Part shown: positions 19,576 through 21,386 of the stretch, in pieces | Position numbering within the stretch: the first letter of the stretch is position 1 | How the letters are laid out: every line of letters begins with the position of its first letter | From: Alkalibacterium sp. | Lineage (GTDB): Bacteria > Bacillota > Bacilli > Lactobacillales > Carnobacteriaceae_A | NCBI GenBank assembly: GCA_020832185.1 | Contig: JAFIFE010000025.1 | Location: 62,001 to 126,000, forward strand | Length of the DNA stretch: 64,000 bases | Direction: 5' to 3' | Notes under the pieces: model-generated | Databases searched by the model: none | Told to the model about the DNA's origin: nothing | What the model saw: only the letters and a program-made list of their open reading frames with translations | Made by a program: the position numbers and the translations under genes

Positions 19576-19720
19576 GTTTATCTCCCCCAGTTAATCAGCT
19601 TAAGGTCACTGCTTTTTAGTGTTCTTCTATTGTAATCCTTTGCATTTATGCATACAATACATATAATTGATAGATTTAATCTAATTTCGATATGATTATT
19701 TGCCGTCTGGAGGAAATAAA

Positions 19721-20605
19721 ATGGAACTGAAACAACTCATTTATTTTATAGAAGTAGCAGAAAGAGAGCATATGTCCAATGCCGCCCAGCACTTGAATGT
19801 GGCCCAATCAGCCATCAGCAGACAAATCAGCAATCTGGAAGAGGAACTGGGCGTTCAGCTGTTTGAACGTGTGGGTCGCAATATGAAACTGTTGCCCGTC
19901 GGACAGATTCTTCTGACGCACGCTAAAGATGTGATTAATCGGCTTGAACAGACGAAAAAAGAAATGGCTGATCATATTGCGCCAGAATCCGGGGTCATTA
20001 AACTAGGATTCCCGACTAGTCTGGCTACCAGTCTTCTGCCCAATCTAATCAATAGCTACAGTAAGTCGTTTCCAGCTATCCAGTTTCAACTGCGTCAAGG
20101 CTCGTATCAGTTTCTGATCGATGCTATTAAGAACCGGGAACTGAATCTTGCTTTTATCGGTCCCGTCATAGAAGATGAACCAGCCATTAGAGGAGATATT
20201 TTATTTAAAGAAAAAATGCATCTCCTTGTCTCCCGCCAGCATAAGGCAGCTCACAGAGAGTCCATTACGCTTAAGGAACTGAAGGACGAAGCCTTTATTC
20301 TGTTCCCTAAAGGCTATATTCTGGAGAAACTGGTGGTTGATGCCTGCCATAATGAAGGGTTCGCCCCACATGTCAGCACACAGGGAGAAGACATGGATGC
20401 CATCAAGGGGATGGTTGCAGCGGGGATCGGTATCACGATCCTTCCAGACAGTGCCATTACCAAATACGAAACTGACTTTTTAAAATGTGTGCCTATAAAC
20501 AGTCCGCAACTGGTGAGAAGTGTAGGAATGATCACTCCAAACACACGGCAGCTGACGCCATCGGAAAAAGGCTTCTATACCTTTGTAAAAAATCAGTTCA
20601 ACTGA
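19721..20605 (+). CDS. gltC: LysR-type regulator, GltC-like
   Basis: A 294-residue LysR-family activator, divergent from gltB and most simply the regulator of gltBD. The N-terminal winged HTH reads MELKQLIYFIEVAEREHMSN then AAQHLNVAQSAISRQISNLE. The co-inducer domain follows from residue 90 (IKLGFPTSLATSLLPNLI), with VAAGIGITILPDSAI near residue 235. I chose the ATG at 19721, 7 bases after GGAGGA; an upstream TTG overlaps that site. The 145-base intergenic region must hold both promoters. A weak hairpin (AACCC...GGGTT, 20614-20640) may end the transcript. Confidence 0.9.
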   Translation: MELKQLIYFIEVAEREHMSNAAQHLNVAQSAISRQISNLEEELGVQLFERVGRNMKLLPVGQILLTHAKDVINRLEQTKKEMADHIAPESGVIKLGFPTSLATSLLPNLINSYSKSFPAIQFQLRQGSYQFLIDAIKNRELNLAFIGPVIEDEPAIRGDILFKEKMHLLVSRQHKAAHRESITLKELKDEAFILFPKGYILEKLVVDACHNEGFAPHVSTQGEDMDAIKGMVAAGIGITILPDSAITKYETDFLKCVPINSPQLVRSVGMITPNTRQLTPSEKGFYTFVKNQFN

Positions 20606-20671: not shown

Positions 20672-20998
20672 AGAATGAGTCAGTTTATCTATTGAGACTA
20701 GTTCAGCCTCCTATCCTCATACGAACGCGACACAAAAGAGCTATTGTGACTAGTTGACAGTGATTTGACTGCAGAACTAGTCACTAAAACATTATTGTGA
20801 CTAGTTCATGTTAAAAAATTAAAAGAAGTGGTTCCAAAAGACGGATTGAGACTACTTCCTGCAAGAAATAGGAATGAACTACCCACTAAACGAGTTTTGT
20901 GACTAGTTCCGTGACTAATTTTTCAGGAACGAGTCTCAATCCTATTCATGTGGCTAGTTAGAGTGCATTAGAACCTGCAACTGGTCTCACTTTTGCGC
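20672..20998. repeat. Array of degenerate inverted repeats with strict 51-nt period
   Basis: Six units start at 20692, 20744, 20795, 20846, 20897 and 20948, at spacings 52, 51, 51, 51, 51. Each unit is a 13-nt left arm (consensus TTGTGACTAGTTC), a 17-nt unrelated segment (18 in unit 1), a ~15-nt right arm in inverted orientation (GAACTAGTCACAAAA, degenerate) and a ~6-nt linker. A solitary right arm (GAATGAGTCAG) precedes unit 1 at 20672. The best junction, GAACTAGTCAC-N12-GTGACTAGTTC at units 2/3, is a perfect 11-bp inverted repeat. All plus frames contain stops, so it is not coding. It lies between gltC and a bidirectional terminator. Family unknown. Confidence 0.85.
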
Positions 20999-21059
20999 GC
21001 TGACGAAAACGAACTGTAAATAGTGGTCCTTCCTCTTCTTATCTTGAGTGACCCCATAG

Positions 21060-21119
21060 AAAAATCCACTCTCTATCCTGATGACTATTCAGTCATTAAG
21101 ATAGGAAGTGGATTTTTTT
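21060..21119. terminator. Bidirectional terminator
   Basis: AAAAATCCACT pairs with AGTGGATTTTTTT, with inner CTATC/GATAG and ATGACT/AGTCAT stems. It can end the minus-strand zinc-ribbon gene and any plus-strand transcript through the repeat array. Confidence 0.85.
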
Positions 21120-21143
21120 AAAAGTCTTTGTTCTCATCAGTAG

Positions 21144-21356
21144 TTAAAATTGAAGATTACAATTGGAGCAGTAAGGGGTCTGTGTCCGCTTGACACTTTT
21201 TCCGCATGACGGACAATGAACAATGCCCTCATCCTCTTTTCCTAAGGAGGATAGGCCGTGAGCTACTGCTCTGCTGCCTATATTTAAGGATTTTGTCTTA
21301 TATTTAAACGAAAGATATAGGATAAAGTCGGTGAGTATCAGCACAGCCACAATCAT
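21144..21356 (-). CDS. Small membrane-anchored zinc-ribbon protein
   Basis: A 70-residue protein with one N-terminal membrane helix (MIVAVLILTDFILYLSF) and a C-terminal zinc ribbon with two CxxC pairs (HCPSCGKSVKR and PYCSNCNLQF). The start is the ATG at 21356, because GAGGAG lies 6 bases upstream; an ATG at 21371 would overlap that site. It lies 31 bases downstream of the MDR dehydrogenase and may share its transcript. The fold is clear but the function is not; such proteins are common, unassigned single-pass zinc-ribbon proteins in Firmicutes. Confidence 0.7.
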   Translation of the reverse strand: MIVAVLILTDFILYLSFKYKTKSLNIGSRAVAHGLSSLGKEDEGIVHCPSCGKSVKRTQTPYCSNCNLQF

Positions 21357-21386
21357 AAAGTCGCTCCTCATTGAGATAGAATCGTT

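Follow-up and report, generated by a model that had tools for sequence, protein, structure and literature searches.

The window, as we term the whole 64,000-nucleotide stretch of Alkalibacterium sp. DNA analysed here, contains an array of six units with inverted arms and a 51-base period, and this array is real and not a product of chance. It appears to represent a lineage-specific, multi-copy and movable element, built of paired inverted half-sites of 13–17 bp with a 51-bp period. The explanation that we prefer, and to which we give about an even chance of being correct, is that the element is a movable array in the chromosome, similar to a BIME, whose paired sites would be bound by a putative DNA-binding protein and which would have a role in DNA topology or insulation. 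Arrays with other motifs at the same 51-base spacing hint that these are docking sites for such a protein and not CRISPR or RNA.

The array in the window

The array, which belongs to the class termed class I below, runs from the left arm of unit 1 to the right arm of unit 6 (20692..20990, no strand assigned). These limits are supported by blastn, in which the C16 array of this genome aligns to positions 21–317 of the 327-nt query, almost the exact extent of the array itself. Unit 1 (20692..20735) consists of a left arm at 20692–20704, an 18-nt spacer and a right arm at 20723–20735, and unit 2 (20744..20786) has its arms at 20744–20756 and 20774–20786 around a 17-nt spacer. The same order of left arm, spacer and right arm is seen in unit 3 (20795..20837; arms 20795–20807 and 20825–20837), unit 4 (20846..20888; arms 20846–20858 and 20876–20888), unit 5 (20897..20939; arms 20897–20909 and 20927–20939) and unit 6 (20948..20990; arms 20948–20960 and 20978–20990). 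The starts of the units (20692, 20744, 20795, 20846, 20897 and 20948, in steps of 52, 51, 51, 51 and 51) agree on re-count with those in the initial annotation of this DNA, as do its 13-nt left arm and, apart from the 18 nt of unit 1, its 17-nt variable segment, whereas the 15-nt right arm and 6-nt linker that it gave are recounted as 13 and 8 nt, the difference being two linker bases. The palindrome of about 34 nt that it described is present, for example at 20774..20807, where a right arm, an 8-nt linker and a left arm follow each other with a right-to-left arm distance of 21. Its description of all arms as consensus-like does not extend, by eye, to either arm of unit 6 or to the right arms of units 1 and 4, which are off consensus. 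The right arm of unit 3 is a variant, GAAGTGGTTCCAA, that arrays at other loci also carry at this unit position.

A 51-nt period no better than that of shuffled sequence had been named as grounds for dismissing the array. Identity at lag 51 over 20672–20998 is 0.46. By comparison, 1000 dinucleotide shuffles give 0.26 (sd 0.03), 300 shuffles reach at most 0.38 at any lag from 20 to 119, and the best 276-nt stretch elsewhere in the window reaches 0.37. The 12 arms have a mean identity of 0.73. Among themselves the six spacers show no relationship (mean pairwise identity 0.24, against 0.26 after shuffling), as had been said of the variable segments, but this does not hold across arrays of the same subfamily: in one subfamily, a comparison of six arrays with six units each gave an identity of 0.43 for spacers at matching unit positions and 0.29 for those at other positions.

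On the left the array is pointed at by a gltC-like regulator gene on the plus strand (19700..20605; the name gltC is that of the initial annotation); five relatives have a match to it at E <= 1e-60, with 64–82% identity. To the right lies a terminator-like inverted repeat with A- and T-runs on its two sides (21057..21120, no strand assigned), which looks like the terminator of the right-hand gene and is possibly bidirectional; that neighbour is a small ORF of 75 aa on the minus strand (21144..21371), convergent with gltC. By eye, an apparent counterpart of the small ORF (L159) is found behind gltC in G006, where the array is absent, and in G003 gltC is followed by neither a counterpart nor an array.

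Distribution, motif classes and period

The genome to which the window belongs (G000, here the own genome) was searched by blastn with the array and then with a sequence-only model of 85 positions, and seven arrays were found, on contigs 5, 13, 16, 22, 25, 27 and 28, of which six have six units and one has eight according to the array finder. Outside these arrays and their edges the sole model match is a weak one (C1:365951-366007), in a search that scored 150 of 966 first-look candidates and could miss a weaker site; as this match lies inside coding sequence, an autoregulatory single site was rejected. The class-I model has matches in 11 of the 12 genomes of the genus at E <= 0.01. At E <= 1e-5, 13 genomes in a 395-genome sample of the order have matches, 11 of them from the genus and two from among five of another genus in the same family, and some genome counts rest on few matches, with G006 having only one to the class-I model at E <= 1e-5. 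G010 yielded no array in this search or in that for the further motif classes described below, its one weak match in the latter not being periodic. The initial annotation had considered that the unit might occur once only and without conservation; the seven arrays and the matches in relatives, compared between species, say otherwise, and its suggestion of a genome-wide intergenic repeat family is supported by them and by related arrays in the relatives. Taken overall, its interpretation is partly supported. A literature search yielded no paper that we recognised as describing such arrays.

Units were counted in 55 class-I arrays, all non-identical and with two units or more, and their numbers are six (21 arrays), three (10), four (9), five (6) and two (6), with seven, eight and eleven units in one array each. 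Linkers are 8 nt long in 198 of 205 cases and spacers 17 nt in 240 of 260, the array finder permitting spacers of 16–18 nt only. A check on half-site distances is free of that limit, and in 494 kb of loci chosen for their arrays successive half-sites of at least 8 bits are 30 nt apart in 217 cases, 21 in 184 and 31 in 15. The two dominant distances sum to 51, and half-sites in the same orientation stand 51 apart in 15 + 8 cases, with four or fewer cases at every other distance in the 494 kb. In a lag control on loci that overlap and were chosen for having arrays, 163 segments reach an identity of at least 0.50 at lag 51, against 12 in total at seven other lags.

The arms continue into linker and spacer, giving a 17-position half-site, T-W-T-W-G-N-R-A-C-Y-A-S-T-T-C-H-T. 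Left and right arms have the same base preferences, so that the array is nearly alike on both strands, and changes at half-site positions 0, 2 and 10 are mostly exchanges of A with T or of G with C; both properties suit recognition of the double helix. From position -1 to 15 about every second base of the half-site is conserved, which is odd for a DNA-binding site. Polarity is given to the array by its linkers, which end in AA or TT in 141 of 198 class-I cases, and these ends are non-complementary and often uniform throughout one array. No partner arm above the 99th percentile of the background lies outside the first left or last right arm in 40 of the 55 arrays, those at contig ends being testable on one side only.

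Three arm classes were distinguished: TWGNRACYASTTC, listed first, ATCTTAAGNAGTTT (class II) and TCTCTAAGCAACTC (class III). Arrays with other arms and the same period of 51 stand behind sufB of G001 and G009. Class II comprises 17 arrays in G001, G004 and G005, and class III comprises 12 arrays in G009, each of 135–136 nt and equal to three palindromes, with one half-site missed in four of the 12. Apart from multiples, the unfiltered same-orientation distances, for which some loci overlap, are 51 (56 cases) and 52 (11) in class II and 51 (28) and 52 (7) in class III; separate step counts for the two classes were taken after keeping half-sites with a partner at 51, 52 or 102. The inner distances are 30+21 in class I, 29+22 in class II and 32+19 in class III, each summing to 51. 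One class-II-related array in G020 (genus g4) has a period of mostly 52 nt, and a lag-51 signal is found in stretches of G008 (0.63) and G002 (0.52), other lags giving 0.39. Class-I matches occur in G001 and G009 too, so motif classes coexist in one genome; the mix of classes differs between species, and the own genome has no class II or class III match. The three classes aligned badly when combined for a single structural model, which was dropped. The class II loci L234, L236, L230 and L232 (G001, G004, G005 and G008) carry a short palindrome, TTTTTCGCC..GCGAAAAA, which occurs three times in G004, at intervals of about 206 nt and interleaved with units of the array.

Placement, descent and copying

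Class-I arrays are found between convergent genes in 31 of 49 cases, compared with 38 of 251 control gaps (Fisher p 2e-11), the others being 16 in tandem and 2 in divergent settings. The 49 are the 55 arrays minus six at contig edges, with orthologous loci counted apart; genes were taken as ORFs of at least 110 aa picked by length and not by a trained gene finder, and the control gaps come from the same loci. All seven arrays of the own genome lie between convergent genes. Classes II and III together, two class-I-like calls being left out, have 11 convergent, 12 tandem, 4 divergent and 3 contig-edge arrays, with no clear preference. Four arrays begin or end 7–16 nt from a stop codon and would thus be transcribed. 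In tandem settings linker polarity agrees with the orientation of the upstream gene for 12 of 14 arrays, with two more undecided, a weak and post hoc trend (Fisher p 0.02, some loci orthologous) that is not seen in convergent settings. A crude detector, in which any gap of about 700 nt or longer is scored as lacking a terminator, called one on 46 of 78 gene sides and left 32 with none before the array; its calls are therefore not used as proof against transcription.

The neighbouring proteins are varied and unrelated, so regulation of neighbours is not favoured as a role. After 16 of 94 listed neighbours, mostly orthologous repeats, had been dropped, no Pfam family was found in more than two of the 78 remaining, among 25 of 112 families listed, and a neighbour gene recurring beside arrays was accordingly rejected. 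In G004, G005 and G008 the sufB array is accompanied by a module (L095 4500-8300, L103 1084-4757 and L120 4261-7635) of regulator-like, small membrane-like and secreted-like ORFs (by eye). A duplicate of the sufB 3' end marks the boundary of this module, which looks like an island placed at that end; G003 has a partial sufB copy too. At L095 2604-2885 a 93-aa hydrophobic ORF, which we presume to resemble a circular bacteriocin, adjoins ABC-transporter-like ORFs.

Arms are more alike than spacers in all 14 array pairs compared at their best unit offset (13 from flank-sharing loci and one within the own genome). At the sufB locus, L088 and L095 have 116/130 identical arm positions and 38/85 identical spacer positions, and L086 and L092 have 116/130 and 45/68, with a common flanking protein 94–95% identical in these two pairs. 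Arms at different unit positions are already 0.74 identical through their common consensus, so four of the 14 pairs (arms 0.68–0.76) are not clearly above that level and there reflect the common consensus and not unit-by-unit descent. A class-I array stands directly behind sufB in 5 of 12 genomes, and the best pair keeps its arm variants at each unit position, which suggests retention. Behind guaA the array is present in the own genome only, one of ten genomes with readable downstream DNA (346 nt in G002 and 1500 in the others, an eleventh being cut at a contig end). A half-site scan of about 1500 nt found no array behind gltC in G003, G004, G006 and G007, and G011 has one about 690 nt downstream of gltC, apparently flipped. 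As the gltC and guaA loci of most relatives are without an array, no given array is essential.

Of the matches examined, the one closest to the window array is the C16 array, the likeness extending from end to end (arms 132/156, spacers 56/103), which points to whole-array copying. More generally, six-unit arrays at different loci of one genome are alike over their full length, with similarity stopping near the outer arms. We infer the way in which arrays are copied, and those of six units seem, from their sequences, to be copied as wholes. The earlier proposal of selection or copying of the whole unit is borne out by this full-length likeness and by the better preservation of arms than of spacers. 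A 51-bp unit has also been duplicated in place together with its spacer in L007 and L023, spacers are duplicated with units in L031, L033 and L041 as well, and L007, L023, L031 and L033 have near-homogeneous units and spacers, so tandem duplication of the 51-bp unit does occur. Two arrays 1.1 kb apart in G002 (L104 4440-5728) have partly duplicated sequence in and around them.

The four near-homogeneous arrays are what neutral tandem duplication (VNTR), palindromic by chance, would produce, but other arrays keep the arm consensus and the 51 period with unrelated spacers, and one arm consensus is common to different loci and species, making this a very improbable account of the family. Acquired spacers, as in a CRISPR or CRISPR-like array, are brought to mind by palindromic repeats with unrelated spacers inside one array, and the label CRISPR-like that had been given to the array is apt for its look only. 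Units are duplicated together with their spacers at the five loci just named, spacers are partly common at the same unit position between loci, and the arms of the window array, at 0.73, fall short of the near-identical repeats of CRISPR. The window array has no match in phage and plasmid collections, nor the unit pattern in viral contigs, and the initial annotation noted no cas-like gene in the vicinity; we give this reading practically no credence.

A serious rival, albeit one that we consider rather unlikely, is a selfish, non-autonomous mobile repeat without host function, in which the arms would be recognition sites for a transposase or recombinase, conserved as only recognised copies spread, and either the array or its units would be copied. 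Such a repeat would suit the presence and absence of arrays between species at guaA and gltC, the whole-length likeness that ends near the outer arms, and the differing mix of motif classes, somewhat as REP classes follow their RAYT in the part of PMC2817692 drawn on here. The array behind sufB, with its position-kept arm variants, suggests retention instead, and the lack of any Pfam family occurring in more than two of the 78 neighbours, among the 25 of 112 families listed, also speaks against a selfish repeat. The transposase family Y1_Tnp (PF01797), the only one known to be associated with REPs and searched for in 27 genomes of the family, points the same way: it has no match in G000 nor, overall, in 9 of the 13 class-I genomes, the four with matches being G002, G003, G005 and G009, and its matches are most numerous (7) in G010, where no array was found.

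RNA, DNA and known repeat families

A chain of RNA hairpins was another possibility raised in the initial annotation; such hairpins would lie in 3' untranslated regions and influence mRNA stability or termination. The consensus is palindromic, and when the window array was folded as both RNA strands and one DNA strand, both strands scored better than their shuffles (z -5.7 and -5.0), which is to be expected of any inverted repeat. The position of some arrays directly after a stop codon, the 32 of 78 gene sides without a terminator before the array in the crude test, the polarity trend in tandem settings and the paired variation of class II palindromes are also in keeping with hairpins. Yet these would leave covariation, of which class I shows none: pairing is 0.712 observed and 0.712 expected across the linker (177 distinct pairs) and 0.702 observed against 0.710 expected across the spacer (239 distinct pairs), and facing arms, with 3.7–3.9 mismatches per 13 positions, reach no higher pairing frequency than shuffled ones do. 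When the window array is folded, the best predicted structure is something other than a chain of local hairpins, and there is no Rfam match at gathering score for the window or five array loci. For class I the claim is thus not supported, and we regard RNA hairpins as improbable in general. In class II, facing palindrome arms match at the most variable position in 66% of 32 pairs, against 29% expected (z 4.7), compared with 32% of 50 pairs against 28% expected for arms across the spacer; position 7 covaries across the spacer (z 5.0), a signal carried by 2 of the 50 pairs. The match within the palindrome could be explained by a homodimer that prefers matched half-sites, by hairpins or by palindrome-correcting mutation. 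Class III pairing gives no signal (0.825 against 0.817).

We infer that a multi-site binding array is the best remaining mechanism, and that the array most likely acts as double-stranded DNA. The fixed helical phase, the symmetric half-sites, the A/T and G/C exchanges and the conservation of the arms fit a protein on double-stranded DNA, while the linker polarity is unexpected for a plain symmetric site and counts against this explanation, as do the arrays in tandem and divergent settings, the lack of a clear placement preference in classes II and III, the four arrays that would be transcribed and the class II covariation at position 7. Each palindrome of about 34 bp would bind a dimer of the putative sequence-specific protein, the fixed period would put adjacent dimers at a fixed helical phase, and the phased dimers would assemble into a single nucleoprotein array behind genes, with a preference for gaps in which transcription units converge. 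For the BIMEs of Escherichia coli a role in local DNA topology or insulation has been proposed, and by analogy the arrays may have such a role and not one in the regulation of their neighbours. REP/BIME elements (E. coli BIME-2, Stenotrophomonas) are favoured 3' of genes, and BIME-2 binds DNA gyrase. By position and form, the BIME would be the nearest functional model.

As set out in the part of PMC2817692 used here, REP/BIME elements are extragenic palindromes of alternating orientation and regular spacing, with dispersed copies and a motif that varies by species. The present arrays are likewise extragenic palindromes with alternating orientation and regular spacing, present in dispersed copies and with motifs that vary by species. 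They differ in having a 51-bp period common to three motif classes, in their number (seven arrays, against over 100 repeats), in their lineage (Lactobacillales), in having neither GTAG nor CGTC as a fixed tag of the half-site logo (GTAG is present in some arm variants only), and in the missing Y1_Tnp matches described above. Membership of a RAYT-mobilised REP/BIME family was rejected on the absence of Y1_Tnp from the own genome and of a fixed tag. The STAR elements of Staphylococcus, in the portion of PMC3532100 considered here, are intergenic 14-bp motifs with locus-specific spacers, repeats of about 50 nt, 1–7 motifs per locus and unknown function, made up of GC-rich direct repeats, T[GAT]TGTTG[GT]GGCCC[CA], with 40–44-bp spacers. 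Judged by that portion, the arrays resemble STAR in being intergenic and in having locus-specific spacers of near-constant length, and differ from its direct repeats in half-sites that alternate in orientation, another consensus and a near-fixed period. False-CRISPR or STAR-like repeats, in the section of PMC5294841 relied on here, have, like the present arrays, a repeat-spacer look without diverse acquired spacers; that class is defined negatively, whereas the present arrays have a common architecture and motif classes. By the tests run, the window array is not a STAR element, a CRISPR or an Rfam RNA.

Recombinase core sites such as loxP and FRT consist of two inverted 13-bp arms around 8 bp, 34 bp in total. 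This 13-8-13 geometry, the sole basis of the comparison, is found here too, but in tandem arrays with 17-bp spacers and variable 8-bp centres, and classes II and III depart from it. MatP/matS, parS and Noc are cases of dispersed chromosomal sites for an organising protein, and those are single short sites, unlike the 51-bp-phased arrays described here.

Palindromic intergenic repeats are usually known by their motif. Three motifs with one 51-bp period separate the thing recognised, the changing motif, from the thing built, the phased array. We tentatively suggest, as a possibility still short of probable, a dedicated chromosome-organising system in which the specificity of the protein would have changed at least twice within one family while the 51-bp phasing stayed fixed. 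The classes TWGNRACYASTTC, ATCTTAAGNAGTTT and TCTCTAAGCAACTC are each found in many arrays, some of them coexisting, and it is conceivable that the phasing is demanded by a higher-order assembly. The arm classes would offer natural specificity differences for fishing out the putative binding protein, and the arrays may provide a handle on the old question of the role of REP/BIME- and STAR-like repeats in bacteria without RAYT transposases.
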